DNA of 35,250 bases, taken from positions 1 to 35,250 of the forward strand of contig OMIR01000041.1 of NCBI GenBank assembly GCA_900299125.1, written 5' to 3'. Source of the DNA: Nitrosopumilales archaeon. GTDB lineage: Archaea > Thermoproteota > Nitrososphaeria > Nitrososphaerales > Nitrosopumilaceae. The notes beneath the pieces are model-generated. The model searched no databases and was not told where the DNA came from. It was given only the letters and a program-made list of their open reading frames with translations. The position numbers and the translations under genes were made by a program. Below are positions 7,776 through 31,435 of this stretch, one piece after another; position 1 is the first letter of the stretch, and each line of letters begins with the position of its first letter.

Positions 7776-8684
7776 CTACGAACGAGATTCGCGTACTACG
7801 TTCACTAGCGAAAACAGTATTATCGCAGTCATAATCAACATTATCCCAATCAGTGTTGACGCAAAGCCAATTAGAGCAACATTGGTCAGAATGGTTCTAG
7901 ATTCAGAAAACACTTGGATTGCCCAAATTATGAAAAATAATCCAATCCCCAAGAATACTAATCCTGGAATACCGTAAAATTTCAGAGGATGTTCTATTGA
8001 AATAAACTTCATTGTGCTTAAAACTACTGATAATCCATGAGACACGGGATTGTGAGTAGATGTATCTCCTTTGTATAACACTATAATTGGAACCTCTACA
8101 ATTCCGAATTTTTTCTTACTAGCTTTGATCAGAATCTCAGTTGATACTCCCATTCCATGTTCAAATGGAATTATGTCCTTTAGTGTAGATTTACCGTATG
8201 CTCTGAAACCACTTTGCGAATCTGTAATCTTTGTGTCTGTTGAAAGATTTGTTAAACTGGTAATGGTTTTGATTCCGACTTTTCTATATGTAGGAACATT
8301 TTTTTTACCATCGTCTAAGAACCTGGATCCTATTACAATATCTGCCTTATTTTGTAATATTGGTTCTACTACTGTTTTTATATCTTCTACCCGGTGCTGG
8401 CCATCTGCATCAAATGTCACTAAAATATCCGCATCAATCTCAATTCCTTTACTCAGTATCGATCTTATAGCAGCACCATATCCAAAGTTCTTTTCATGAT
8501 TAATCACAACAGCACCAAGATTTTTTGCAATTTCACCAGTAGAATCAGACGAGCCGTCATTGCACACAATTATTTTGCCAGTAATTTGTTTAAGCTTTAG
8601 TAATAACGAAGCAATGTTTTTTTCTTCATTATATGCTGGTATGCCAATAACTATGTCCATTTTTCTTTCCTTACCATTAACCAT
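7776..8684 (-). CDS. GT2-family polyprenyl-phosphate glycosyltransferase with C-terminal TM helices (GtrB/DPM1-like)
   Basis: The 302-residue protein carries a GT-A domain with I-G-I-P-A-Y-N-E-E at 13-21, N-D-G-S-S-D-S-T at 42-49, and a full metal motif F-D-A-D-G-Q-H near 91-97. G-S-R-F and Q-S-G-F-R-A motifs follow. Two hydrophobic helices close the protein, near 240-261 and 268-292, as in GtrB-type bactoprenol glucosyltransferases. The call starts at the ATG at 8684, but Met9 (position 8660) fits family alignments better. A TATA-like TTTTATA near 8697-8704 would place the transcript start between the two. It sits directly upstream of a GT39-type membrane transferase. Confidence 0.85.
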   Translation of the reverse strand: MVNGKERKMDIVIGIPAYNEEKNIASLLLKLKQITGKIIVCNDGSSDSTGEIAKNLGAVVINHEKNFGYGAAIRSILSKGIEIDADILVTFDADGQHRVEDIKTVVEPILQNKADIVIGSRFLDDGKKNVPTYRKVGIKTITSLTNLSTDTKITDSQSGFRAYGKSTLKDIIPFEHGMGVSTEILIKASKKKFGIVEVPIIVLYKGDTSTHNPVSHGLSVVLSTMKFISIEHPLKFYGIPGLVFLGIGLFFIIWAIQVFSESRTILTNVALIGFASTLIGIMLIMTAIILFSLVNVVRESRS

Positions 8685-8735
8685 TTTTTTTAAGTGTATA
8701 AAATCTACTATTCAAAAACACATACATCATTCGTG

Positions 8736-9890
8736 TCACACAATGCACTCTATTACCTGGTCCTGCTGAATTCTTGAAATTTGAGGGTAGAATGGGAGTG
8801 AGATTACTTCTTTGTATGTCATCTCTGAATTATCAAGTTTGTCGTATATCTTGGCTTTCTTTTTAAACACTGTAAATTTGTGTAGTGGTTTGTAGTGAAC
8901 AGAAGTTCGTATGCCTTGAGACAACATCTTCCTAAACAAAGCATCTCTGGATATTTTGTAGTCTTTCTTTATTTTTATGATGTAGAGATGAAATGCCTCT
9001 GTAGAATCCCTTTGAATCTTTGGTGTGCTTATTCCTTTTACATTATCTAATTTAGAATTATAGTATTCAAATGCTCTCTTTCTATCGGAATTTAATTTGT
9101 TTATTCTTTCTAACTGGCTTAGTCCCAATGCAGATCTAATCTCATCTAATCTGTAATTATAGCCAGGTTCTAAAACATCATAATCCCATGGTTTGCCGTG
9201 AGTGTATCGTTCTTTTAGTGATTTGAGTATCCCGTGATTTCGTAGAGTGCTTATGTATTTTGCAATCTTTCCAGAATTAGTGGTGATCATGCCACCTTCA
9301 ATAGATGTAATGTTTTTTGTTGGATAAAAGCTAAAACAGCCTGCACTTCCAAATGTTCCTACGTGTCTTTTATTGTATTTAGATCCAATTGCATGTGCAC
9401 AGTCTTCAATTACGATGAGATTATTTTTCTTAGCAATTCTTCCAATATCTGTCATGTTGCAAGGTTTCCCTGCAAAATGAACTGGAAGTATAGCTTTTGT
9501 CTTTGATGTGATACTTTTTTCAATGGATTTAACTGAAATATTGAGATCATCGTTGATGTCAGCAAGTACTGGTGTTGCACCAGACAATAATACTGAGCTT
9601 GCAGTTGCTACAAACGTCATGTCTGGAATTATTACCTCATCTCCGTTACCAATCCCAGCACTCTTTATTGTCAAATGTAATGCTGATGTGGCATTAGAAA
9701 CGCCTATAGCAAATTTAGCCCCAGCAAATTTGGCAAACGCATTCTCAAATTCGCGTAATATTGGCCCATCGGTAAGCAAGGGTGATTCTAGAGCCTTCAA
9801 AACCGCCTGCTTGTCTTTTTTTGTAATCAATGGGGAAAAAAACGGGACTCCTATTGATCTACTAAAGGCATCACCGTCAGTTATCTTCAA
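8736..9890 (-). CDS. DegT/DnrJ/EryC1-family sugar aminotransferase
   Basis: This 384-residue PLP enzyme reads F-S-P-L near the start, S-N-A-T-S-A-L-H-L PLP-phosphate loop near 65-73, I-E-D-C-A-H-A-I-G-S near 161-170, and F-Y-P-T-K-N-I-T near 188-195. It retains the Schiff-base lysine (K192), so it is a true 4- or 3-aminotransferase acting on a keto nucleotide-sugar. Relatives include ArnB, PseC, FdtB and DesV. The start is TTG at 9890, with an AT-rich TTAATAAT element about 26-30 nt upstream on the minus strand. It belongs to a minus-strand run of sugar genes. Together with RmlA/RmlB and the cupin isomerase at 23.5 kb it could form an FdtB-like step, but the substrate is not determinable. Confidence 0.88.
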   Translation of the reverse strand: MKITDGDAFSRSIGVPFFSPLITKKDKQAVLKALESPLLTDGPILREFENAFAKFAGAKFAIGVSNATSALHLTIKSAGIGNGDEVIIPDMTFVATASSVLLSGATPVLADINDDLNISVKSIEKSITSKTKAILPVHFAGKPCNMTDIGRIAKKNNLIVIEDCAHAIGSKYNKRHVGTFGSAGCFSFYPTKNITSIEGGMITTNSGKIAKYISTLRNHGILKSLKERYTHGKPWDYDVLEPGYNYRLDEIRSALGLSQLERINKLNSDRKRAFEYYNSKLDNVKGISTPKIQRDSTEAFHLYIIKIKKDYKISRDALFRKMLSQGIRTSVHYKPLHKFTVFKKKAKIYDKLDNSEMTYKEVISLPFYPQISRIQQDQVIECIV

Positions 9891-9919
9891 ATCTACGTTA
9901 TAATGCTAAAATGATATTA

Positions 9920-11104
9920 TTAACTCTCTCTTAGAATGTTTTTGTATACTTGTAGTATATTTTGAGCCATGGTTTTTGAATTACAAACATCATGAACCAA
10001 TCTGTAACCACTCTCTCCATATTTTGTTCTAGTTTTTTCATCTGTAATTAGATGCAGAATAGCTTTTGCAAGGTATTCTGCATTGTCTGGTTCGACCAAA
10101 ATCGCATTGTCTCCGTCTGTAATTGTAAATGGGATTCCATGTGCAGTTGTACTTATGGTTGGTTTTCTAAATGCGAATCCTTCCAATGGAGTTAATGGAG
10201 ATAATTCCCATCTGGATGGTAATACAAGAAATTGACACTCAGAATATGCTGCAAGTACTTCGTCACGTGAGGGTTTTTTTATAACGATAATTTTGTCTGC
10301 AATCTTTAACTCATTAATCATTTTGAGCATTTGTGATTCAAAACCAAAATCTACTCCCATTATCACTAATTTGACATTTAGAACTGCTTGCTCATTTTGT
10401 ATCAATGCAAATGCCTTTACTAATAGATCCACGCCTTTCACATAAGCAAATCTGCCGACAAACAATATGTAATGGGTTACAATGTTATGTTTAGCTTTAA
10501 AACTTTCAGCGCGTATCTGCAGCTTTTCTAGATCAACACCATTTCTTACTATGACTAATTTCGATTCTGGACAGAATTGAGAAAATATTTTCCTTTCATA
10601 CTCGTTACCAATAGTGATCATTGTTGATTGATTAATTATAAAACGAATCATGGGAAACTGAACTCTGTATAATAGTTTCTTTATGATACTATCAGAAATA
10701 TCTGGATGAGATGTCAATCCACCCTGATCGGTTAAAACCAAAGGAATTTTTTTCTTTTTTGCAATTAATGCAGCAACAAAAGATTGAAAGCTCCTTACTC
10801 CAATGGTGTGGATTATGTCTGGCTTGTCTTTTAATATCTGAAAGTACATACCGGGATTAATAAAAAATAATTGCAAGTAAAACCATACATGCGATCGATT
10901 GATCTTGAATTTATCAACAGACTCGATTCTAGGGAGTTTTTTGTTAAATGTGTGTGCATTGTTTGCCAAATCCATATCTGTAGTGTAAATGGTTACATCA
11001 TGATCCATCTGTGAAATCCCTTTAGCAATATCTATGCACAAATGCATTATGCCACCAAATTGTGTGGCAGGAAGTGATGCAGGACAAACTAGCGCTATTT
11101 TCAT
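9920..11104 (-). CDS. GT4-family glycosyltransferase
   Basis: This 394-residue GT-B protein has the N-terminal acceptor domain motif F-G-G-I-M-H near 16-21, a linker with L-F-V-G-R-F-A-Y-V-K-G-V-D near 214-226, and a C-terminal donor domain. The donor domain shows L-S-P-L-T-P-L-E-G-F-A near 304-314, then a G-I-P-F-T-I-T-D-G turn. The glutamate-containing E-G-F-A segment is the usual nucleotide-sugar contact of GT4 enzymes. There is no signal peptide or membrane segment, so it acts at the cytoplasmic face. The ATG start is clear. It lies 29 bp upstream of the aminotransferase gene on the same strand and is presumably co-expressed. Confidence 0.88.
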   Translation of the reverse strand: MKIALVCPASLPATQFGGIMHLCIDIAKGISQMDHDVTIYTTDMDLANNAHTFNKKLPRIESVDKFKINRSHVWFYLQLFFINPGMYFQILKDKPDIIHTIGVRSFQSFVAALIAKKKKIPLVLTDQGGLTSHPDISDSIIKKLLYRVQFPMIRFIINQSTMITIGNEYERKIFSQFCPESKLVIVRNGVDLEKLQIRAESFKAKHNIVTHYILFVGRFAYVKGVDLLVKAFALIQNEQAVLNVKLVIMGVDFGFESQMLKMINELKIADKIIVIKKPSRDEVLAAYSECQFLVLPSRWELSPLTPLEGFAFRKPTISTTAHGIPFTITDGDNAILVEPDNAEYLAKAILHLITDEKTRTKYGESGYRLVHDVCNSKTMAQNILQVYKNILRES

Positions 11105-11159
11105 TCTTGTTATATCTTGAGAACTATTCTAATGTAATAAAGACTGCCAAACATTTCTT

Positions 11160-11936
11160 CTATTGTTTATCTGCAAATATTAAACCATAATTTTGCTTTT
11201 CAGATTTTGTAATTATGTTAAATCCAAATTCCTGTAATTTCATCTTTATCTTCTTTAAGCGTTCCAAATCATTGTTTATAATATGATATTCCATGCTGAT
11301 TTTCTTTATTTTTTTAAAATGATCTTCTGATAATGAATCCAAGATGTCGTATTCTGCTCCTTCACAATCAAGTTTTATCAAATCAACTTCTATGCATTTT
11401 GAATCTATTACATCTCCTAGAGTAGTTGAGTTAATTTTGACATAATTCTCCCCAGATCCGTAAATTGTATGAGCCGCATTATCAGTTCTGTTGAGATAAA
11501 TCTTGAGTGGTTCACTTGTACCTGAAACTGCCAAATTAAACGCAGATACATTATCCAGATTGTTTAGTCGTATGTTTTCCAATAAAACATCATAATTTTC
11601 CTTTACTGGCTCAAATGATATGATCTTTCCAGTTCGACAAAACTGAGAGGCATAAACTGAAAAAAGACCTATGTGAGCACCTATGTCTATGATGGTGTCA
11701 TTATGATTAATCTCGAAATTTTTTACATTATACTCTTGAATAATCCATACGTTAACAAATGCTTCAATATCTGTAGAATTTGTTCTTAACTTCAAATGCT
11801 TGCCGTTTCTTAAATGCAATACAAATGACGGCGTTCTAATCAATCCATAATGAGCAAGTGGTACAACGTACCAATTTTTCACTAGCTTAATGATCTTAAC
11901 TAATATCGATAATTTTGTACCAGTATTAGACTCCAT
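11160..11936 (-). CDS. FkbM-family SAM-dependent methyltransferase
   Basis: The 258-residue protein has the FkbM Rossmann core: I-I-D-I-G-A-H-I-G-L-F SAM-binding motif near 84-94, an acidic S-F-E-P-V motif near 114-118, and V-D-L-I-K-L-D-C-E-G-A-E near 183-194, which is the hallmark of the family. FkbM-type enzymes O-methylate hydroxyls on sugars and polyketides, and here probably a glycan residue. The N-terminal 60 residues lack strong features. It begins with ATG at 11936, divergent from the SDR at 12040, and is followed by the GT4 gene after 55 bp. Confidence 0.88.
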   Translation of the reverse strand: MESNTGTKLSILVKIIKLVKNWYVVPLAHYGLIRTPSFVLHLRNGKHLKLRTNSTDIEAFVNVWIIQEYNVKNFEINHNDTIIDIGAHIGLFSVYASQFCRTGKIISFEPVKENYDVLLENIRLNNLDNVSAFNLAVSGTSEPLKIYLNRTDNAAHTIYGSGENYVKINSTTLGDVIDSKCIEVDLIKLDCEGAEYDILDSLSEDHFKKIKKISMEYHIINNDLERLKKIKMKLQEFGFNIITKSEKQNYGLIFADKQ

Positions 11937-14408: not shown

Positions 14409-15107
14409 TTATTTGAGTATTGTTTCTGATATGCGAATCAATTTAACCAGATTTGCCGTCTCGTCATAATCAAAGCTCACATTGTTATCTATGAAATCTT
14501 TCGATTTGTCTCCAGTAATGTGGAATTCAACTATCTTGGCACCAAGTGATACTGCAGTCAATGGAGCAAGAAAATGTGGACAATGATTAGAATAACCATC
14601 AAAATCTTTGATATTTCGAAAATCTATGTCCTTAAGATCATATGGGTATTTTGGAACACAGTATAGCCATGATATCTGCTCATTATTGAAATATTTTGTA
14701 GTTTTAGGGGATAACTCACTACTAATTATCACCTGTTTTCCCGTGCGCAAAACCTTATTGATTAATTCAGAATCTTTGTTCTCAAAAAGTGGCTTTCCAT
14801 CATGTACTCTGATCTTGAATCTTTTTACATAATCATTCAAAAAATCAACAGCTTCTGGATACATGGGGGTACAAAACCATTCTATGCCTACAGAAGATGC
14901 AATTCTGTCGATTTCATCTATGTTGTTTTGAGATATTGCTGCTTTTGCAAGACGCGCATGTTCTGGGTGATCTTTTACTGCTTCTGCACGATATGCTTGA
15001 AATTTGACTGCATCACATCCTGTTTTCTTTGCATTTTCCATCATATTTTTTGCTAATGCGAAATTGCCGTCCCAGTTAACACCTATCTCGGCAACAACAA
15101 ATACCAT
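14409..15107 (-). CDS. neuB: Short NeuB-family nonulosonic acid synthase (no SAF/antifreeze domain)
   Basis: The 232-residue protein matches the TIM-barrel of N-acetylneuraminate, legionaminate and pseudaminate synthases. Seen in order: V-A-E-I-G-V-N-W-D-G at 5-14, A-V-K-F-Q-A near 33-38, F-C-T-P-M-Y near 77-82, the Y-P-Y-D-L segment, G-Y-S-N-H-C, and G-A-K-I-V-E-F-H-I-T-G-D near the end. NeuB condenses phosphoenolpyruvate with an N-acyl hexosamine. Typical members are about 340 residues and end with a SAF domain that contributes to the partner active site; here the frame stops after the barrel with no SAF-like sequence downstream. The ATG start has a TATA box exactly 26 nt upstream. NeuC and NeuA lie 16-20 kb away in the same island. 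Confidence 0.82.
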   Translation of the reverse strand: MVFVVAEIGVNWDGNFALAKNMMENAKKTGCDAVKFQAYRAEAVKDHPEHARLAKAAISQNNIDEIDRIASSVGIEWFCTPMYPEAVDFLNDYVKRFKIRVHDGKPLFENKDSELINKVLRTGKQVIISSELSPKTTKYFNNEQISWLYCVPKYPYDLKDIDFRNIKDFDGYSNHCPHFLAPLTAVSLGAKIVEFHITGDKSKDFIDNNVSFDYDETANLVKLIRISETILK

Positions 15108-15199: not shown

Positions 15200-16033
15200 T
15201 CAAGATTTCATTACAGCGATATACCTAGTAAATGACGTAAAATCAAAATTCTTCAATAATTGATCTATTCTATCAAATGTCTTTTCAATATTGTGATATG
15301 TGATGAATTTATCTTTGAACGACATTGGAATTCTTGGCATATATTCTGGTGTGAGCTCCCACGAATGTATGTAAAATGAAGCTGGGATATTTTTTCTTTC
15401 ATATTCCTTAATTGATTTCTTGATTGTGTTCATGGGTAGGAGTCTAAGGTAAAATCCTCCCGCCGTAGGGATCTTCTTACCCAGAAATTTACCTATCGAT
15501 AATGGGAACTCTAAAATTTTGCCGCTTGGGTCATCTTGCAGAAGCTTTTTTGTTATCTTGTATGGTTTTGTTTCCGCTTCAGAAAAACCATACATGCCAG
15601 TTTTTACAGGCATGATACTACTATCATATACATATCCGTGGTCTGCAAGTGTGTCTATTACCCAACTGCTTTGATGGTTTAAGGAAAATGTCGGCGCTCT
15701 AAATCCTTTTGAGCGATTACCTGTCATCTCTGCAAATTTTTTGAGCTCATCTGGAAATCTTTCCTTAAAGCCAGGAGAATCTAGTCTTGTATGGTGCATT
15801 GTATGAAATCCTACCTCATGTCCATTTTCAATTATTTTGTCCATGATCTCTGGCGTGTGCCTTAAGGTCTCACCGACAACAAAGAATGTGGCATAGCTGT
15901 CATTGATTCTTAGTAAATCAAGAATTTTGTCTATTCCTTTAGCAACTTTGGGTTCCCTATTCTTACCGTCCAAATATTTTTGGACTAGTTGTGGATGAAA
16001 CCAATCCTCAAAATCGATTCCTAAAATATTCAT
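15200..16033 (-). CDS. Polysaccharide deacetylase (NodB homology, CE4 type)
   Basis: The 277-residue protein contains the NodB domain: D-F-E-D-W-F at 7-12 supplies the catalytic and metal Asp, and G-H-E-V-G-F-H-T-M-H-H at 71-81 gives the metal-binding H-x-x-x-H pair (H77, H81). G-F-R-A-P-T-F-S near 113-120 and a C-terminal F-Y-I-H-S-W-E segment complete the set. The architecture resembles the exosortase/EPS-associated deacetylases that carry a DUF3473-type tail. No signal peptide is visible, so it probably acts on cytoplasmic nucleotide-sugar or lipid-linked intermediates, for example an N-acetyl sugar. The start lies 8 bp after the stop of the acyltransferase gene, so both are in one operon. 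Confidence 0.85.
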   Translation of the reverse strand: MNILGIDFEDWFHPQLVQKYLDGKNREPKVAKGIDKILDLLRINDSYATFFVVGETLRHTPEIMDKIIENGHEVGFHTMHHTRLDSPGFKERFPDELKKFAEMTGNRSKGFRAPTFSLNHQSSWVIDTLADHGYVYDSSIMPVKTGMYGFSEAETKPYKITKKLLQDDPSGKILEFPLSIGKFLGKKIPTAGGFYLRLLPMNTIKKSIKEYERKNIPASFYIHSWELTPEYMPRIPMSFKDKFITYHNIEKTFDRIDQLLKNFDFTSFTRYIAVMKS

Positions 16034-16041
16034 GGTATCAT

Positions 16042-16647
16042 CTAGTGTTCAATCTTCTTTACAACTCTTGCTGGATTACCGACAACCACACAATAATCTG
16101 GCACGTCCTGAGTTACTACGCTACCAGGAGATACAATGGAGTTCTCACCAATTGTGACTCCTGCCATTACAATTGAACCTGGCGTGATTACAGCTCCTGA
16201 CTTGATTATTACAGGTTCTACCTTTCTTGGATATGCTCCCTTTTTGAGAAAAAGATTCGCGGTAGGATTTATGTGAGCAAAGATCATTGTATTTGCCCCC
16301 AATGTGACATTGTCCCCTATTGTGATAATTTGTGGATAAACTAAATCAATTTGGACATACGGACAAATATGACAATTTTTTCCTATCTTTACTCCTCTCG
16401 CTCTTTGTATGTAAACTGCAAAACCAGAATGTACCGATGAATATGCTAGGCAGTGCAATATCCATGAGCGAAGAATCTTGAATTTGATTCTGGTCTTGCC
16501 AATACTACCTTTGTATCCATAATATTCCATCAGTTCTTTTTCATTTACTGATAGTGCGTCCTCAATGTCTTTCATCAGATGTACAAAAAGTCTAAAACAC
16601 AATGCTATAACTTTTGGGTAGAAAAAATTTGATCTAATTAAGGACAA
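16042..16647 (-). CDS. Left-handed beta-helix (hexapeptide repeat) acyltransferase
   Basis: The 201-residue protein has a helical N-terminal part (1-95) followed by hexapeptide repeats from about residue 97. It closes with V-V-V-G-N-P-A-R-V-V, the typical end of serine-acetyltransferase/WcaF-like O-acetyltransferases. The acyl donor is normally acetyl-CoA. Because the gene is divergent by only a few tens of bp from an FkbH-ACP cassette, an acyl-ACP donor is conceivable (inference). The TTG start at 16647 is uncertain; an ATG at 16575 would remove 24 residues of a weakly conserved N-terminus. It is co-directional with the deacetylase gene and 8 bp from it. Confidence 0.82.
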   Translation of the reverse strand: MSLIRSNFFYPKVIALCFRLFVHLMKDIEDALSVNEKELMEYYGYKGSIGKTRIKFKILRSWILHCLAYSSVHSGFAVYIQRARGVKIGKNCHICPYVQIDLVYPQIITIGDNVTLGANTMIFAHINPTANLFLKKGAYPRKVEPVIIKSGAVITPGSIVMAGVTIGENSIVSPGSVVTQDVPDYCVVVGNPARVVKKIEH

Positions 16648-16663
16648 TTAGATCATTAGGTCG

Positions 16664-16671
16664 AAATATTT
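16664..16671. promoter_or_regulatory. Palindromic AAATATTT, candidate shared TATA element of a divergent promoter
   Basis: The gap between the divergent acyltransferase and FkbH starts holds one AT-rich element, AAATATTT, followed by ATT. It lies 20-30 nt from the candidate starts on both strands: TTG 16647 on minus, TTG 16686 or GTG 16698 on plus. A single symmetrical element could therefore serve both directions. The spacing favours GTG 16698 for FkbH. Confidence 0.4.
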
Positions 16672-16697
16672 ATTCTGCGAATAGGTTGTACTTTGTT

Positions 16698-18446
16698 GTG
16701 AGCCAGGAACAAAAACTCTCATACTACATAAACAAAGCAAAATCGCTTGATATTGCAAAATATGAAAAAAAAATACGCATAGCTTTGATTGGAAGCTTTA
16801 CGCTTAATGGAATAGAAGAGACATTGCGAGTCAAATGCTCTGAAATGAATGTCGGTTGTAATTCGTATGTGGCAGGTTACAATCAATACAACCAAGAAAT
16901 TCTCAACAAGGAAAGCAATCTATACAAGTTTTCTCCCGATGTGACATTTCTAATCCTTGATATCAGGAGCATTCTTGGTAAACTATTCCATACACCATAC
17001 TTGATCTCTGAAACTGAGAGAAAGAAATTCATAGACAACAAGGTATCGGAGATTTCTAATCTGATCAAATCTTTTACAAACAATTCTAAATCAAAATTGG
17101 TCCTCACTAACCTTGCAATACCGACGTATTCACCATATGGGATCTATGAAACAAAAGTAGCATATGGTCTACAGGAAATGGTTAATGACTATAACCAACA
17201 AATTTTGGCGATTACTAAAAACGTCGAATCTGTTTATGTTTATGACTTTAATGCCTTTATGACAAAGTTTGGTGAGAAAAATGTATTTGATTTTAAACAG
17301 TTTTTCCTTGGGGATGTACAGATCTCGTTTGAATATATTCCGTATCTATCTCATAGTCTTACAGGCTATGTCAAAGCAATTCTCGGACTGAACAAAAAAT
17401 GTATAGTTTTAGATCTTGACAACACCTTATGGGGAGGAATAGTGGGCGAAGATGGTTTTGAAGGCATAAATCTGGGAGGCGATCCTGTAGGTAAGGCATT
17501 CGCAGAATTCCAAAAATTATTGTTGTCTATACACAAACGAGGTATACTTCTTGCAATAAACAGTAAAAACAATTTCGAGGATGCAATACATGTCATACGG
17601 GAACACTCTGAGATGGTTCTTAAAGAAGAGCATTTTGCATGTATGAAAATAAACTGGAATGACAAGGTGCAAAACATGAAGGAAATCGCAAATGATCTAA
17701 ACATAGGCCTTGACAGCATGATCTTCTTCGATGATGATCCTGTAAATTGTGAATACATCAAATCAAGTTTCCCACAAGTTATGACTGTTACGATGCCAAA
17801 AGACACATCTCAGTATGTTCCGCTTTTAATGAGTCTCAATGATTTTGATATTTTAAAAATAACTGAGGAGGATCTTGGCAGAGGTAATATGTACCTGCAA
17901 GAAAAACAAAGAAAAGATCTAGAACACCAAGCAACAAATCTTGATGACTTTTTACAACAATTAGCGATTAATCTCAAAATAAAAAAAGCAAATGATTTTA
18001 CAATTCCCAGAATATCGCAACTAACACTAAAAACAAATCAGTTCAACCTAACTACAAAACGCTATCAAGATGAAGACATCAGAAAATTCATAGACTCTGG
18101 TAATTGGGTAGGGTGTGCTCAAGTTCAGGACAAATTTGGTGACAGTGGAATAACTGGAGTATTCATAGTCAAAAAAAATCCCACGGAGTGGATTATTGAT
18201 ACATTTTTGCTCAGCTGCAGAATAATGGGCAGAGGCATAGAGAATGGAATTTTATCAGAAATTCTCAAAAAGGCAAAAGAAGCAGGCGTAAAATCAGTCG
18301 TAGGCGAATTTATTCCAACAAAAAAGAATGCCCCATGTGCAAATTTTTTCTCAGACTATGGATTCAAAAAGATTGGACAGTATTGGGTTTTTGATATGAA
18401 TAACCCTATAAAAACTCCTAAACATCTCAGCTGTAGTGTAGAATAA
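16698..18446 (+). CDS. FkbH-like HAD-superfamily acyl-ACP loading protein
   Basis: The protein has about 582 residues. An SGNH-like N-terminal half comes first. A HAD phosphatase-like domain follows with L-D-L-D-N-T-L-W-G-G near 238-247, the D-x-D-x-T nucleophile motif, and F-F-D-D-D-P-V-N-C in its second half. A GNAT-like C-terminal region contains F-G-D-S-G-I-T-G-V. This is the full three-part FkbH layout. In the FK520 pathway FkbH takes 1,3-bisphosphoglycerate, removes a phosphate and loads a glyceryl group onto an acyl carrier protein. The gene ends in a 1-bp overlap with an ACP gene, which fits exactly. The GTG at 16698 is preferred by TATA spacing; a TTG at 16686 would add four residues. 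FkbH systems are mainly bacterial, so horizontal origin is likely. Confidence 0.88.
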   Translation: MSQEQKLSYYINKAKSLDIAKYEKKIRIALIGSFTLNGIEETLRVKCSEMNVGCNSYVAGYNQYNQEILNKESNLYKFSPDVTFLILDIRSILGKLFHTPYLISETERKKFIDNKVSEISNLIKSFTNNSKSKLVLTNLAIPTYSPYGIYETKVAYGLQEMVNDYNQQILAITKNVESVYVYDFNAFMTKFGEKNVFDFKQFFLGDVQISFEYIPYLSHSLTGYVKAILGLNKKCIVLDLDNTLWGGIVGEDGFEGINLGGDPVGKAFAEFQKLLLSIHKRGILLAINSKNNFEDAIHVIREHSEMVLKEEHFACMKINWNDKVQNMKEIANDLNIGLDSMIFFDDDPVNCEYIKSSFPQVMTVTMPKDTSQYVPLLMSLNDFDILKITEEDLGRGNMYLQEKQRKDLEHQATNLDDFLQQLAINLKIKKANDFTIPRISQLTLKTNQFNLTTKRYQDEDIRKFIDSGNWVGCAQVQDKFGDSGITGVFIVKKNPTEWIIDTFLLSCRIMGRGIENGILSEILKKAKEAGVKSVVGEFIPTKKNAPCANFFSDYGFKKIGQYWVFDMNNPIKTPKHLSCSVE

Positions 18447-18682
18447 TGACCAAAAAATTGTTTGAAATTATTTCTCAGGTTTTGAACGTACCAATGACAG
18501 AAATCAATGATGAATCAGGCCCAGAAACAATCGAAGGATGGGACTCATTTAACCTCTATGTGTTATTGGATGAAATTGAAACAACATACAATGTGAAATT
18601 TGATCTGGACGAAACGTTAGAAATAAAGAACGTGGGACATTTCAAAAAAATGCTACAAAGGCATGGAGTAACTGATTTCTAA
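18446..18682 (+). CDS. Acyl carrier protein
   Basis: This 78-residue acidic protein has the four-helix ACP pattern. The phosphopantetheine attachment site reads E-G-W-D-S-F-N, with Ser34 as the modified residue, a common variant of the D-S-L motif in non-fatty-acid ACPs. The ATG overlaps the stop of the FkbH gene by one base, so translation is coupled. A holo-ACP synthase lies two genes downstream and would convert this apo protein to its active form. Archaea normally lack fatty-acid-synthase ACPs, so this carrier is presumably dedicated to the glyceryl (or related acyl) group delivered by FkbH and then moved to a glycan. That use is inference. Confidence 0.92.
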   Translation: MTKKLFEIISQVLNVPMTEINDESGPETIEGWDSFNLYVLLDEIETTYNVKFDLDETLEIKNVGHFKKMLQRHGVTDF

Positions 18683-18685
18683 GCA

Positions 18686-19090
18686 ATGAAGCTACATCAT
18701 GTTGGTATTGTAGTACCAAACATTCGAGATTCTCTCGGTGAACTTGGTAAATATTTCAAATTTGAAAGTATCAGTATACCGACATTGGTGGGCTCTCAAA
18801 AAGTAAATGTCTGTTTTCTAAAGGTGGGCCAGCCATATATTGAGCTAATTGAACCAGCATCTGTAGACACACCTGTGACATCATTTTAGAATACGGGCGG
18901 AGGATTCCATCATCTATGTTTTGAGGTAAATGATATTCACAAAGCAGTTGATGATATGGAAAAAAAAGGTGCCAGAGTTGTAGTAAAACCAGTCATCGGT
19001 TTTGAAAATAGACTCATTGCGTTTGTTTTATTAAACATGAAGAACACAAAATGTAATCTCATTGAATTTGCTGAAGCAATAAAATCATAA
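18686..19090 (+). pseudogene. VOC-family (methylmalonyl-CoA epimerase-like) protein interrupted by an in-frame TAG
   Basis: The frame opens with M-K-L-H-H-V-G-I-V-V, a typical VOC start with its metal His, and runs through Y-I-E-L-I-E-P near residues 51-57. It meets TAG at 18887-18889 after 67 codons. The same frame then continues without any shift for 66 further codons to TAA at 19088-19090. That part contains G-G-G-F-H-H-L-C-F-E-V and L-I-E-F, exactly the second beta-alpha-beta module and remaining metal ligands of the family. Joined, the protein is about 134 residues, the normal length. The TAG aligns with a position usually occupied by Leu (F-L-E-K-x-G-G-G in relatives), so TTG to TAG is the simplest change. 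It may be a young nonsense mutation, a sequencing error or readthrough. It begins 3 bp after the ACP stop and ends 3 bp before acpS. Confidence 0.85.
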
Positions 19091-19093
19091 TCA

Positions 19094-19459
19094 TTGACTG
19101 CATATCATCTTAGAAATATTGGAGTCGGAATAGATATTGTAGATGTTTCACGATTCAAAAAAATCCCATATGGTCAAAACAAAAGCTTTTACAAAAAAAT
19201 CTTCACCGTCTCAGAAATTCAATATTGCGCTAAATTCAGTGAGCCGTACAAACATTTTGCAGCCAAGTTCGCACTCAAAGAGGCTGTAAAAAAATCAATA
19301 GCAAGAAATGTAAAAATGTCTGATATTGTGACATCACACACAAAATCAAAACCTATTGTTTTACTTAAAAATAATAAAAATTATCAATTCAAAGTATCAC
19401 TGAGTCATGAAAAAACTCTTGCAATAGCTATAGTACTCTCAGAAAACCTATCTAGATGA
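19094..19459 (+). CDS. acpS: Holo-[acyl carrier protein] synthase (4'-phosphopantetheinyl transferase, AcpS type)
   Basis: The 121-residue protein has the AcpS signatures: G-V-G-I-D-I-V-D-V near 10-18 with the Mg-binding Asp14, F-T-V-S-E-I-Q-Y-C near 37-45, and F-A-A-K-F-A-L-K-E-A near 55-64 with Glu63 and Lys62. These are the metal and CoA-contact residues of bacterial trimeric AcpS enzymes. It transfers phosphopantetheine from CoA to a carrier Ser, almost certainly Ser34 of the ACP encoded two genes upstream. The TTG start at 19094 lies 3 bp after the VOC frame ends; there is no ATG near. The 3' end overlaps the convergent GT2 gene by 8 bp. Presence of a dedicated AcpS next to the ACP supports a functional module. 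Confidence 0.92.
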   Translation: MTAYHLRNIGVGIDIVDVSRFKKIPYGQNKSFYKKIFTVSEIQYCAKFSEPYKHFAAKFALKEAVKKSIARNVKMSDIVTSHTKSKPIVLLKNNKNYQFKVSLSHEKTLAIAIVLSENLSR

Positions 19460-20495
19460 TCTTTCTTGTAGTTCTGCTTAATCTGTAAATAAATTTGTTA
19501 AAGAGCATGTTGCTTTTTTTGTCTGCAACCTCTTTTGGAACTGCAAGGTCATCGCTAAACTCTACAATTATTTCTCTATCTGATACTTTTCGCTGCTTTT
19601 GGATCTCGTGATAACGTTGATTGATTTTTTTCCTATTCTTTATTATGTCGACTGAAGCTCTTATTTTTGCTTTAATCATGCCTTTTCTTAAATAAAAAAA
19701 GAACACCGCAATTTCTACAAGCACTAACGATGGGAGCATCTTGTAAAAAGTAGATCTTGAATAATGAGTCAGAATACAATAATACCTGTTTCTCTCTAAA
19801 AGATAATACTTGAATTGACTCCATTTGAAACTAAATCCCTCTGGAGGATGATAAATAACAGAATCTGGGACGTAATACGATTTTATTCCACGCATGGCTG
19901 CTCTCCAACCTACATCAAGATCATCATGATATGCAAAAAGAAACGAGTCAAACATACCCAGTCCCCTTAATGTCTCAGTTGATGTAAAAAGGCAAGTACC
20001 AGATGCATAACCAATTGTTTCTATGTGATCAAACTGCTTATCATCACGATTACCTTTTCCACGTGAATAACCAAATGCAAAAAGCTGTATCATGTTCCCG
20101 GTACTCATCAAAATACTGTGATCTGTAGTTGTAAGGAATTTTGGTTGATAAAGGCCGACTCCATGTTCTTCGTATGCCTCAACAAGTTTTGTTAACCAGT
20201 TTGGTTCTGCTAAAGTGTCTGGATTCAAAATCACAACAAACTCTCCTTTTGCAATTCTTATCCCAACATTGTTTCCCTCACAATATCCGAGATTTTCTTT
20301 GTTTTCAATCAAAACTATGTTTGGGAATTTTTCTTTACAAGTTTGATGACTATGATCTTTTGATGCATTATCTACTACAATCACTTCAAAATTTGGGTAC
20401 TCTGTTTTTAGTATGGAATCAACACAATCAATTAACAGCTGTCCTGCATTATAATTAAGAATGATTATGCTGACCAGAGGTTTGTTTTTAGTCAT
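19452..20495 (-). CDS. GT2-family glycosyltransferase (rhamnosyltransferase/WbbL-like)
   Basis: The 347-residue protein starts with a GT-A domain: S-I-I-I-L-N-Y-N near 9-16, V-V-D-N-A-S-K-D near 40-47, E-N-L-G-Y-C-E-G-N-N-V-G near 67-78, and the metal motif L-N-P-D-T near 91-95. The F-A-Y-H-D-D-L-D-V-G-W-R segment near 188-199 is the expected acceptor/catalytic loop of WbbL-type enzymes. A single hydrophobic stretch near 254-267 could anchor it to the membrane. The C-terminal 80 residues are basic and poorly conserved. The ATG start is clear. It is convergent with acpS (8-bp overlap) and divergent from the TylF-type methyltransferase. Confidence 0.88.
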   Translation of the reverse strand: MTKNKPLVSIIILNYNAGQLLIDCVDSILKTEYPNFEVIVVDNASKDHSHQTCKEKFPNIVLIENKENLGYCEGNNVGIRIAKGEFVVILNPDTLAEPNWLTKLVEAYEEHGVGLYQPKFLTTTDHSILMSTGNMIQLFAFGYSRGKGNRDDKQFDHIETIGYASGTCLFTSTETLRGLGMFDSFLFAYHDDLDVGWRAAMRGIKSYYVPDSVIYHPPEGFSFKWSQFKYYLLERNRYYCILTHYSRSTFYKMLPSLVLVEIAVFFFYLRKGMIKAKIRASVDIIKNRKKINQRYHEIQKQRKVSDREIIVEFSDDLAVPKEVADKKSNMLFNKFIYRLSRTTRKII

Positions 20496-20585: not shown

Positions 20586-21293
20586 GTGGACGATAATACA
20601 CGCAGTAGCGTTTACAAAACCAAAGCGCTTGGCAACATTTTGGGATATTTTCTTTATCTCTTCCAGTTCAAGCTCCTCTCGTTTTACAAAGGTCAACAAG
20701 TAGTGAACTTGATAAAATCCATTAGAAATGAAGTTGATCTCGCTTTCTATCCATACGAAGCCTACACAGTGTATTCAATCGCAAAATCGCAGAGCAATCT
20801 CAAAGGAGACATGGCAGAAGTTGGTGTGTATCAGGGAGGGTCTGCAAAACTCATCTGCGAGGCCAAACAAAAAACCAAGCTTCACCTGTTTGATACGTTT
20901 TCTGGATTACCTCCGGTTTCTGACAAAGATACGCATTTTGGGACCAAATTCTGGCATGAAAATGAATTTAACAACACCAGTGAAGAAACTGTGAAAAAGT
21001 ATCTGTCCAAATATGAGAATGTCTTTTTGTACAAGGGTAGGTTTCCAGAAACATCTACTCCTATCAAAGACGTTCAATTCAGCTTTGTCCATCTTGATGT
21101 CGATCTGTATCAAAGCACACGTGACTGCCTAGAGTTTTTTTATCCTAGACTTGTCAATGGAGGAATCATACTTACCCATGACTATCATTCAAATGGTGTA
21201 CAAACTGCATTCCGAGAATATTTCCAAGACAAGAAAATCCCGATGATTGAGCTTACGGGTTCACAATGTATGGTAGTTAACGCTAAAGAGTAA
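20586..21293 (+). CDS. TylF/MycF-family sugar O-methyltransferase
   Basis: The 235-residue protein shows the macrocin-O-methyltransferase pattern: A-E-V-G-V-Y-Q-G-G-S-A SAM-binding loop near 78-88, L-F-D-T-F-S-G-L-P near 100-108, and H-L-D-V-D-L-Y near 169-175 with the metal-binding acidic residues. L-T-H-D-Y follows near 197-201. These Mg-dependent enzymes methylate hydroxyls of deoxysugars. An N-terminal hydrophobic stretch near 17-32 may associate with the membrane. The GTG start fits the TATA element 26 nt upstream. The 3' end overlaps the convergent rmlA gene by 11 bp. It is a second methyltransferase family in the island beside FkbM. Confidence 0.88.
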   Translation: MDDNTRSSVYKTKALGNILGYFLYLFQFKLLSFYKGQQVVNLIKSIRNEVDLAFYPYEAYTVYSIAKSQSNLKGDMAEVGVYQGGSAKLICEAKQKTKLHLFDTFSGLPPVSDKDTHFGTKFWHENEFNNTSEETVKKYLSKYENVFLYKGRFPETSTPIKDVQFSFVHLDVDLYQSTRDCLEFFYPRLVNGGIILTHDYHSNGVQTAFREYFQDKKIPMIELTGSQCMVVNAKE

Positions 21294-23997: not shown

Positions 23998-26046
23998 ATG
24001 AATATGGCCATAATGGCCCCACTCAAAATCTATCTTGGTGATCTCACTCATGATACCATAATAGTCTCAACAGAGGCATTTCCACTAAATGTGGGCTATA
24101 TTGCCGCATATTGCAAAAAACGATTTGGCGATTCTGTCGACATTACTATTTTCAAGTATATCAAAGACCTGGAAAATGCCATAATGAATTCTCCTCCAGA
24201 TATACTGGGCCTTAGCAATTATTGTTGGAATCACCGTATAGGACTGGAAATGTTTCGAGTCTTGGCAAAATGTAATCCGAATGCATTACGCGTATGGGGA
24301 GGACCTAATTTTCCCCTTGATTTACCATCACAAGAAGAATTTTTGCGAAATTATCCAGAAGTGGATGCATATGTTCCAGTGGAAGGGGAAACTGGATTCT
24401 CGAATCTAGTTGAAATCGTACTCAATGCAAAATCCAAAGAAGAAATAAGATCCTCTGTTCTATCAAAAACCGTTCCTGCATGTATTACCAGACAACATGA
24501 TGGAAGGTTGTTGTACGGTGATTATAACAGAATAAGAAACTTGGACGAAATTCCCTCCCCCTACACAATGGGGCTAATGGACAAATTCTTTGATGGAAAG
24601 CTGACACCAATGTTGCAAACCAATAGAGGATGCCCGTTTTCATGTACTTTTTGTGTTGATGGAACAGATCTAGTAAAACAAGTGAACCAATTCAGCATAG
24701 AGCGGGTAAGAACTGACATCAACTACATTGCAACTCATGTTCCAGAAAATATCCATAGCATGCACATTAGTGATCTGAATTTTGGAATGATGCCGCGTGA
24801 CATTGATGTATGTCAAACAATATCTGAAATGAAGCACAAATATGGATACCCACTTAATGTTCTTGCTACCACTGGTAAAAACTCCAAAGAAAAGATAATC
24901 AAAGCAGTCAAACTCTTAGATGGAGCATTACGATTTACAATGTCTGTACAATCTATGGATCAGAAAGTTCTGCGAAATATCCGCCGTGATAACATAAGTG
25001 TTGATCATATGCTTGCATTGGGTCCAACAATTAAAGAAGCCAAACTCAGCACTGCATCTGAAGTCATCTTGGCATTACCGGGTGAGACATACGCTAGCCA
25101 CATACAAACACTAAAAGATCTAGTGCAGGCCAGACTAGATTCTATTCAGATTTACACGTGTATGATCTTGCCTGGCTCGGAGCTATACACTCCAACAGAG
25201 CGCAAAAAGTGGGGCCTTAAGACAAAATTCAGAGTTCTTCCACGAGACTTTACTGAGCTAAACGGCAGAAAAGTAGTCGAAATTGAAGAATGCGTGGTAA
25301 GTTCTGATACTCTGACATTTGATGAATATGTAGAACTTAGAATGATTGCATTTTCAATTGGTATGACAAGCAATGGCGGAATTTATGGAGCGCTTTTGAA
25401 GTTTCTCAGAGAAAAAGGAATAGACGTCTTTGAATTATTCCTTCAAACCATAAAGCGCCTAAACACTTCGCATCCAAACATCAGATATGTCTTTGATTTG
25501 TACAAAAAGGCAACAATTGGCGAGCTGTGGAACACTCCAGAAGATCTTGAAAAGCACTATCAAGATGAAAAAGAGTATCAAAAATTACTAAATCAAGAGG
25601 TTGGAATGAACGTAATGCAATTCCATAATGCACTTGTTACTGCAGAATACATGAATGAGTGGACTGAATATATGCTTGATTTGTCTTCTTTGCTCATGCA
25701 AGACAAACTAAATTCTGATGCGCAAATTGCCCACCAATTCACAGCTATAACTAATTACATTCGAGGTACGTGTTCAAATGTCCTAAAAAGAGATAGAATG
25801 TTTGTCAATCCGGAATTTGAGTTTGATTATGATGTACAAAGCTGGTTAAATGACCCACAAGAAATTCCAATTGAACACTTCAAGCTTTCAACTCCGACTA
25901 AAGTTGCATTCAAACTAACAGAAAAACAATTCAAACTAGTAGAAGATGAGCTGGATGTACATGGAGATAACTCTACTGGGCGTGGCCAAGTGATCAAACG
26001 TGTTCCAATTAACATGTTATTACGTACTCCAGTCATTGTAAACTAG
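23998..26046 (+). CDS. Cobalamin-binding-type radical SAM protein
   Basis: The 682-residue protein has an N-terminal Rossmann-like domain (about 1-140) of the B12-binding kind, with P-L-N-V-G-Y-I-A-A-Y near 29-38, W-G-G-P-N-F near 100-105 and V-P-V-E-G-E near 126-131. The radical SAM core contains N-R-G-C-P-F-S-C-T-F-C, so C212, C216 and C219 bind the 4Fe-4S cluster. The core runs to about residue 420, and an uncharacterised helical C-terminal part of about 250 residues follows. The canonical D-x-H-x-x-G cobalamin motif is not evident, so cobalamin may be bound base-off or not at all. Such enzymes do C-methylations and other difficult radical chemistry. The gene begins 41 bp after the cupin gene. 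The substrate is unknown, presumably a sugar or lipid carrier intermediate. Confidence 0.82.
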   Translation: MNMAIMAPLKIYLGDLTHDTIIVSTEAFPLNVGYIAAYCKKRFGDSVDITIFKYIKDLENAIMNSPPDILGLSNYCWNHRIGLEMFRVLAKCNPNALRVWGGPNFPLDLPSQEEFLRNYPEVDAYVPVEGETGFSNLVEIVLNAKSKEEIRSSVLSKTVPACITRQHDGRLLYGDYNRIRNLDEIPSPYTMGLMDKFFDGKLTPMLQTNRGCPFSCTFCVDGTDLVKQVNQFSIERVRTDINYIATHVPENIHSMHISDLNFGMMPRDIDVCQTISEMKHKYGYPLNVLATTGKNSKEKIIKAVKLLDGALRFTMSVQSMDQKVLRNIRRDNISVDHMLALGPTIKEAKLSTASEVILALPGETYASHIQTLKDLVQARLDSIQIYTCMILPGSELYTPTERKKWGLKTKFRVLPRDFTELNGRKVVEIEECVVSSDTLTFDEYVELRMIAFSIGMTSNGGIYGALLKFLREKGIDVFELFLQTIKRLNTSHPNIRYVFDLYKKATIGELWNTPEDLEKHYQDEKEYQKLLNQEVGMNVMQFHNALVTAEYMNEWTEYMLDLSSLLMQDKLNSDAQIAHQFTAITNYIRGTCSNVLKRDRMFVNPEFEFDYDVQSWLNDPQEIPIEHFKLSTPTKVAFKLTEKQFKLVEDELDVHGDNSTGRGQVIKRVPINMLLRTPVIVN

Positions 26047-30248: not shown

Positions 30249-30280
30249 TAATCTGTCTGAATTAATTGAGATTTGATACA

Positions 30281-31435
30281 ATGAATAAACAAGAAAATCC
30301 TGATCAATGGAAGCTTCCTTTATACAAAATCTATTCAGATGATGAAGATCTAAATCTCATAACAAAAATTATCAAAAGAGGAACAAAATGGGCAATTGGC
30401 CCAGAGATTGAAGAATTTGAAAATGAAATCAAAAATTATGTTGGAAATGATTACTGTGTTACATTAAACTCTGGAACATCTGCATTACACGCATTATTTC
30501 TTGCATATGGGGTTGGAAAAGATGATGAAGTAATCATACCATCATTTTCTTTTATCTCTACTGCAAATTCGGTATTATTCGTAGAAGGAAAACCAAAATT
30601 TACTGATATTGAGGAGACCACTTTTGGCCTAGATCCAACCATGGTCTCAAAAAATATCTCATCTAAAACAAAAGCGATAGTGCCAATGGATTATGGTGGC
30701 CTTTCATGCAATATTTTTGAAATTAAAAAAATAGCTAAGGAGAATAATGTAATTCTGATAGAAGATGCCGCAGAAGCTTTAGGTTCGTCTGTAAAAGGAA
30801 AAAAAACCGGCTCTGTAGCAGATTCTAGCATCTTTAGCTTTTGTGGAAACAAAGTACTGACTACCGGAGAAGGCGGAGCAGTAGTTACAAACTCTAAAAA
30901 TATCTATGAAAAACTAAAACTCATCCGCTCTCATGGTAGGATTGACAAGACTAACTATTTTGACAATCCTGATGATCCAGTCTATGAAATGCTAGGATTT
31001 AACTGGAGAATGTCGACTATTACTGCAACATTAGGTCTATCACAGATTCATAAATTGGATAAACTAATTCGAATGCGTCAAGAAAATGCAAAATACATTT
31101 CATCAAAGATCTCGAAATTCCATCAGATCAAGACCCCAGTTGCTCCTGATGGATATGAACACATTTATCAGATGTAAACAATACGATTAGACAATCAAAA
31201 AATACGTGAGGATTTACATGATTACTTGACGGCAAAAAAAATATTCTCTAAAGTATACTTTTCTCCAATTCATCTCACATCATTTTATCAAAATAAATTC
31301 GAGATTGACAGAAACTCTCTACCTATAACTAACAAAATATCTGAGCAAGTGCTTACACTTCCGATGTATCCGAATATGACTTCCGAAGAAAAAGATTATT
31401 TGGTTGACTCAATTTCGGAATTTTTTGAAAAATAA
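30281..31435 (+). pseudogene. DegT-family aminotransferase (LegC/PerA-like) interrupted by an in-frame TAA
   Basis: From the ATG at 30281 the protein shows W-A-I-G-P-E-I-E-E-F, an N-S-G-T-S-A-L-H PLP loop near 63-70, I-E-D-A-A-E-A-L-G near 160-168, and F-C-G-N-K-V-L-T-T-G-E-G-G with the Schiff-base lysine (about K191), as in LegC and perosamine synthases. After H-I-Y-Q-M the frame meets TAA at 31175-31177. The same frame then continues with T-I-R-L-D and a normal C-terminal domain, including Y-F-S-P-I-H and L-P-M-Y-P, up to TAA at 31433-31435. Relatives have Tyr or Phe at the interrupted position, so TAT or TAC to TAA is the simplest change. Without readthrough the product lacks about 85 residues that complete the active site. 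Alternative start TTG 30266. Confidence 0.85.

Follow-up and report, generated by a model that had tools for sequence, protein, structure and literature searches.

A 35,250-base contig from a Nitrosopumilales archaeon, analyzed at its full length and referred to here as the window, encodes what is probably a system for carrier protein-dependent sugar acylation. It comprises a head-to-tail cassette for an FkbH-type acyl loader, an acyl carrier protein (ACP), a VOC protein and an AcpS-type phosphopantetheinyl transferase, surrounded by glycan genes that include a divergently encoded hexapeptide acyltransferase, designated HexAc1, and a polysaccharide deacetylase. In the function we favor, a deacetylated sugar would be re-acylated on its amine from an acyl-ACP, starting from glyceryl-ACP. 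The window is the entire contig C41 of bin G000 (1.56 Mb, 109 contigs), and its host is an ammonia oxidizer at the Nitrosotenuis level, in the same genus group as Candidatus Nitrosotenuis chungbukensis. The cassette is more general than a sequence-only reading of the window, made without database searches, had noted, and its function is, so far as sequence can tell, well constrained.

The cassette and the larger unit

The four cassette genes are as follows.

16698..18446, + strand: FkbH (HAD-IIIC) acyl loader; D239/D241 at 17412/17418, invariant Cys507 at 18216
18446..18682, + strand: acyl carrier protein; phosphopantetheine Ser34 at 18545, in GWDSF
18686..19087, + strand: VOC protein, methylmalonyl-CoA-epimerase-like; interrupted by an in-frame TAG at 18887-18889
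19094..19459, + strand: AcpS-type phosphopantetheinyl transferase; Asp14 at 19133, Glu63 at 19280

Family models bear out the assignments of FkbH, ACP and AcpS, with their signature residues, that had been made by eye. FkbH, which starts with GTG at 16698, scores 314.5 bits against the subfamily model TIGR01686 (cut-off 146.65); its D-x-D-x-T motif reads DLDNT at 17412-17426, and D239 and D241 are invariant in 97 relatives. The ACP scores 24.6 bits against PF00550 (cut-off 20.8), and the phosphopantetheine-site Ser of its GWDSF motif is kept in all 23 aligned island ACPs. AcpS scores 47.9 bits against PF01648 (cut-off 25), has as its metal residues the Asp/Glu pair typical of the family, and aligns with AcpS structures of the Bacillus subtilis type; it just misses the equivalog model TIGR00516, at 57.0 against 59.8. 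The gaps between the genes are 0 to about 6 bases, and the four-gene order, which recurs in many genomes, is far above chance. Coordinates, order and spacing agree with the earlier description of four consecutive, nearly touching genes, except that the VOC gene is not an intact open reading frame.

The unit is larger than these four genes, and its neighbors are listed next.

15200..16033, - strand: polysaccharide deacetylase, PF01522 with DUF3473, NodB/XrtA-type; proposed to free the sugar amine
16042..16575, - strand: HexAc1, left-handed beta-helix acyltransferase of 177 residues; proposed to transfer the acyl group from ACP to sugar
19452..20495, - strand: GT2 glycosyltransferase; conserved convergent neighbor of AcpS in Nitrososphaerota islands
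20586..21293, + strand: TylF-family O-methyltransferase; at this place only in VOC-type islands, with possible acyl or sugar O-methylation

The order is constant in Nitrososphaerota: the deacetylase and HexAc1 on one strand, FkbH, ACP, MaoC or VOC, and AcpS divergent from them, and then the GT2 glycosyltransferase. The module is thus self-contained in bringing its own AcpS, as had been supposed, but it does not end with four genes, since the deacetylase belongs to it. The divergent hexapeptide acyltransferase, earlier guessed to be the partner of the cassette, is indeed its constant neighbor. The deacetylase scores 52.6 bits against PF01522 (cut-off 23.1) and matches the NodB model weakly (41.3 bits, cut-off 240); the candidate motifs GIDFED, HTMHH and RAP are kept in nearly all Nitrosopumilaceae homologs. 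HexAc1 keeps the conserved His101 and an NPAR motif, and its predicted structure (mean pLDDT 90) shows a left-handed beta-helix and, N-terminal to it, a helical portion. Its open reading frame extends to a TTG at 16647, and FkbH adjoins it divergently. The sequence AAATATTTATT at window 16664-16674, about 25-35 bases 5' of the FkbH GTG, is a candidate TATA box, and the transcript might be leaderless.

Distribution and variation

The accepted view is that ACP and AcpS are missing from most archaea (reviewed in PMC3533463). Among 300 genomes of the order, FkbH scores above its cut-off in 25 and AcpS in 34. The two genes are near neighbors in most cases, among them single-contig genomes with 0-1% contamination. 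When truncated FkbH copies are counted, FkbH is found in 29 genomes, AcpS in 34 and both in 23 (Fisher test, 7e-21, phylogeny not corrected for). HexAc1 occurs in 27 of the genomes, and FkbH or AcpS accompanies it in 25 of them. The contamination estimate for the bin is 5.74%, and the sequence-only reading had raised two doubts, that the genes might be bacterial contamination on a chimeric contig and that ACP and AcpS might be widespread housekeeping genes of the host lineage. The first is rejected, as Candidatus Nitrosotenuis chungbukensis has the same island order and so do single-contig genomes whose estimated contamination is no more than 1%; the second is rejected because AcpS is confined to 34 of the 300 genomes and lies mostly beside FkbH.

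In bacteria, ACP and AcpS usually work in lipid, biotin or lipoate metabolism, and the archaeal pair could in principle do the same, its island location being incidental. We consider this hardly credible, given that AcpS, where it occurs in the order, sits mostly beside FkbH or beside an AMP-ligase and HexAc1, and that ketosynthase matches in the kin are only partial. No match to the ketosynthase model PF00109 was found in G000, and the partial matches in its kin, at 19-30 bits, are probably thiolases; partial matches of this sort also arise in archaeal controls. Type II fatty-acid synthesis was rejected on this ground. Polyketide synthases (PKS) and non-ribosomal peptide synthetases (NRPS) were not found in the cassette neighborhoods read, and the islands are rich in glycosyltransferases and nucleotide-sugar genes.

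Searching archaeal genomes for the synteny, as had been proposed, found the same gene order in many of them. Bathyarchaeota and Loki-, Thor- and Heimdallarchaeota have FkbH, ACP and AcpS together with a HexAc1 homolog (35-41% identical) and a PF01522 deacetylase, and some have VOC as well; AcpS-FkbH is also present in DPANN and in the Candidate Phyla Radiation (CPR). What had looked like one odd horizontal acquisition is rather an archaea-wide module, found in Nitrososphaerota, Bathyarchaeota and Asgard archaea, with its AcpS-FkbH core in DPANN and CPR. AcpS accompanies FkbH at 36 of 42 archaeal loci, 4 of 4 CPR loci and 2 of 51 loci in the remaining, bacterial group (one of the two, L112, is a DPANN archaeon counted there), and HexAc1 with the deacetylase accompanies FkbH at 32 of the 42 archaeal loci but at none of the 51 loci in the bacterial group; some archaeal loci represent one genome twice, and the counts are of loci, not independent events. 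On a simple reading, archaeal loci have their own AcpS because organisms without fatty-acid ACP chemistry must bring one.

In a 97-row FkbH tree, built with a quick search setting and attended by composition warnings, most Nitrososphaerota sequences, the window's included, form one clade (SH-aLRT 95), whose neighbor is a mixture of CPR, DPANN, Omnitrophota and other Nitrososphaerales. Asgard and Bathyarchaeota sequences form a separate clade (99). Transfer of FkbH between these groups is likely from the tree. VOC and MaoC island types are interleaved on it.

The slot after the ACP is usually filled by MaoC, with an intact hydratase motif (GDxNPLHM) in most. VOC takes this place in the window, in Nitrosarchaeum Baikal-G1 and in several Nitrosopelagicus-type genomes; an SDR is added in islands L054 and L055, and FkbH loci without either VOC or MaoC exist. 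VOC, taken at first for a fixed member, is accordingly one occupant of an interchangeable tailoring slot, and an interrupted one here. The loader is exchanged as well. Islands L063 and L065 have an AMP-ligase in place of FkbH and retain ACP, AcpS and HexAc1, L064 and L073 are related forms, and overall ACP or AcpS persists with the acyltransferase. On contig C11 of the same bin, the end of an AMP-ligase gene is joined with HexAc1, VOC and deacetylase genes, and on contig C60 FkbH lies downstream of NeuB and a NeuD-like acyltransferase. TylF follows GT2 in all three VOC-type islands that keep the GT2 neighbor (window, L043, L082) versus none of 14 MaoC-type islands (p 0.0015, uncorrected), and L087, of VOC type, is without both GT2 neighbor and TylF. 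Decaying FkbH-MaoC-AcpS cassettes with several stops were seen in L060 (about 7834-11253) and L062 (about 67-1934), which shows recurrent loss.

Proposed sugar acylation and alternatives to it

From the gene families, catalytic residues, operon order, cross-phylum linkage and swaps observed, we infer a substrate, an acceptor atom, an order of steps and a set of tailoring reactions. AcpS would convert apo-ACP to holo-ACP at Ser34. FkbH would then load the ACP with a glyceryl group drawn, to judge by its homologs, from 1,3-bisphosphoglycerate; the choice of glyceryl is suggested by FkbH homology alone. Chemistry suggests the tailoring steps. Because glyceryl-ACP is a 3-hydroxyacyl thioester, its dehydration by MaoC could yield the enol of pyruvyl-ACP, which an added SDR might reduce to lactyl-ACP, and VOC, as kin of acyl-CoA epimerases, might invert C2. 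The deacetylase would remove the N-acetyl group from an amino sugar of a surface glycan or lipid-linked precursor, and the amine thus exposed would receive its new acyl group through HexAc1. The window includes PseB-, PseC-, NeuC-, NeuB- and PseF-like genes, so that a nonulosonic or amino-sugar acceptor is available. A glyceryl group that replaces N-acetyl in this way would shift the mass by +46.005 Da relative to N-acetylhexosamine, and not by the +88 Da earlier expected for it.

An amine acceptor, rather than a hydroxyl, is suggested by the linkage of the deacetylase to the cassette. Several points weigh against the proposal as a whole. The sole solved relative of FkbH, 3slr, is uncharacterized, and the VOC gene is interrupted in the window itself. 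Deacetylase subfamilies differ, with DUF3473 present in Nitrosopumilaceae and absent in Asgard archaea and Bathyarchaeota, and the soil Nitrososphaerales islands L047, L048 and L019 have FkbH-ACP-MaoC on short contigs without HexAc1 or deacetylase. Finally, HexAc1 is nearest, in sequence and predicted fold, to maltose and galactoside O-acetyltransferases, with the N-acyltransferases AntD and Pcryo_0619 lower in the fold list; for this reason the modeled fold leaves amine versus hydroxyl unsettled and keeps O-acylation open.

The same acyl-ACP module might then acylate a sugar hydroxyl, the linked deacetylase serving some other residue for its own reason. Apart from the O-acetyltransferase likeness of HexAc1, this would fit a Sinorhizobium FkbH-ACP pair that adjoins a gene for an MBOAT O-acyltransferase. 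Against it, the adjacency of HexAc1 and deacetylase recurs across archaeal phyla, AntD and Pcryo_0619 have the fold of HexAc1, and a NeuD-like acyltransferase lies upstream of FkbH in C60. We judge O-acylation quite unlikely.

A different product altogether would be made if FkbH began a small secondary metabolite or a C3 unit like that of methoxymalonyl-ACP, oxidized and methylated, TylF being its O-methyltransferase. Glyceryl-ACP loading in the methoxymalonyl-ACP and tetronate pathways (PMC7489565) shares with the cassette the FkbH domain, its DxDxT HAD motif and an adjoining stand-alone ACP; TylF is close by in VOC-type islands, and some bacterial FkbH genes lie in ketosynthase clusters. In contrast to those pathways, the cassette has no dehydrogenase, ketosynthase or PKS, and it has its own AcpS, a glycan-island setting, and a deacetylase with a hexapeptide acyltransferase. 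Oxidizing partners of FkbG/FkbI type had been called absent. No FkbD/FkbI-type dehydrogenase was indeed found in the cassette, but an FkbG-like partner is not clearly absent, because TylF is one gene away and tracks VOC-type islands. Of the two dehydrogenases and one O-methyltransferase that accompany FkbH and ACP in the methoxymalonyl-ACP pathway, the O-methyltransferase is thus the only one with a counterpart nearby. With no ketosynthase, PKS or NRPS, and with the cassette always within glycan islands, a secondary metabolite is very improbable.

Re-acylation of a freed amine, the function we favor, has parallels in bacterial glycan pathways. The flagellin of Campylobacter jejuni NCTC 11168 bears pseudaminic acid in its N-(2,3-di-O-methylglyceroyl) form, and Cj1295 has been proposed to deacetylate the sugar beforehand (PMC3068675). 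There too a C3 glyceroyl group replaces the acetyl of an amino sugar, and TylF would be the candidate for O-methylation here; the proposed deacylase Cj1295 is aminopeptidase-like, whereas the archaeal cassette has a PF01522 deacetylase and a dedicated AcpS. On a Maritalea plasmid, FkbH lies between pseB and a gene for a DUF4910 protein, with a NeuB-family gene. In the rhizobial NodB-NodA-NodF system, a sugar amine is freed by a deacetylase and then takes up an acyl group that an acyltransferase draws from a dedicated ACP, a logic that resembles the proposed module. It differs in that NodA is not a hexapeptide protein, the acyl group is a long fatty acid and there is no FkbH. Polysaccharide clusters with FkbH-ACP-MaoC-SDR in Omnitrophota, Bacillota and Bacteroidota have similar tandem loader, carrier and tailoring genes, and nearly all, unlike the archaeal loci, are without an adjacent AcpS or PF01522 deacetylase. 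In two plasmid records, L172 and L174, FkbH lies in a ketosynthase-rich cluster (Pseudalkalibacillus) and beside ACP and MBOAT acyltransferase genes (Sinorhizobium); several pathways thus make use of FkbH-ACP pairs.

Bacteria are known to use this loader and carrier chemistry, and in them the re-acylation of a deacetylated sugar is also known or has been proposed. What appears undescribed in the searchable literature is the archaeal arrangement, which brings together an AcpS of its own, a deacetylase and a swappable tailoring slot, in line with the earlier remark that such a modification is not commonly described in archaea. Literature on FkbH with archaea, O-antigen or MaoC yielded nothing on glycans, and the one detailed N-glycan paper on ammonia-oxidizing archaea, whose strains may or may not carry the cassette, reports no C3 acyl group (PMC12153357). 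If the proposal is correct, surface glycan acylation is the one place where many archaea use a carrier protein, and its chemistry can be predicted for strains of Nitrosotenuis in culture, in which the S-layer is exposed to the ammonium supply and to viruses. The proposal would also give a function to genes that now bear no annotation beyond HAD-IIIC phosphatase, acyl carrier protein or hexapeptide transferase. More tentatively, and without leaning toward it, we suggest that several archaeal phyla, with DPANN and CPR sharing the AcpS-FkbH core, might keep an otherwise absent ACP system solely to decorate surface sugars with C3-acyl groups (glyceryl, pyruvyl, lactyl, epimerized or O-methylated), where the deacetylase and hexapeptide transferase, with swappable loaders and tailoring enzymes, would amount to a modular sugar-acyl code.

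The interrupted VOC gene and other features of the contig

The VOC product ends after 67 residues at the TAG, and the frame beyond it stays open up to 19087; in intact kin this position is Ser, Ala or Leu. A second in-frame stop, TAA at 31175-31177, stands at a position that is Tyr in kin and ends a DegT/PseC-like aminotransferase (30266-31177), whose frame continues to about 31434. A comparable pair of internal stops was not seen in the other islands tested. Read-through of the VOC stop is unlikely because of the residues that kin have there and because the second stop on the contig, TAA, is of a different type; consensus errors and young nonsense mutations are both possible. With the stop masked, VOC scores 68.4 bits against the methylmalonyl-CoA epimerase equivalog TIGR03081 (cut-off 114.95), and the Nitrosarchaeum cassette VOC is only 24-32% identical to likely housekeeping epimerases, so that a plain copy of that enzyme is unsupported.

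The stops bear on whether the cassette is decaying in this genome, with VOC dead, the island a relic and other islands of the bin doing the work. Two in-frame stops on one contig, the decayed cassettes L060 and L062, and the further islands on C94, C69, C11 and C60 would fit such an account. It is nevertheless somewhat unlikely, as FkbH, ACP, AcpS, HexAc1 and the deacetylase are all intact, both stops are single codons within otherwise open frames, as expected of consensus errors, and FkbH loci free of VOC and MaoC exist.

Up to five contigs of the bin have related glycan-island pieces (besides the window, C94 = L006, C69 = L169, C11 = L168 and C60 = L056), where complete relatives have one. 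Together with the contamination estimate, these several island contigs may reflect strain mixing. The NeuB-like protein at window 14409-15107, of 232 residues, is without the C-terminal part of its family, and short 243-residue copies are also found in L046 and L060. A B12-binding radical SAM protein is encoded in the glycan island at window 23998-26046; it is kin to KedN5-type C-methyltransferases, at 199 bits, under the cut-off.

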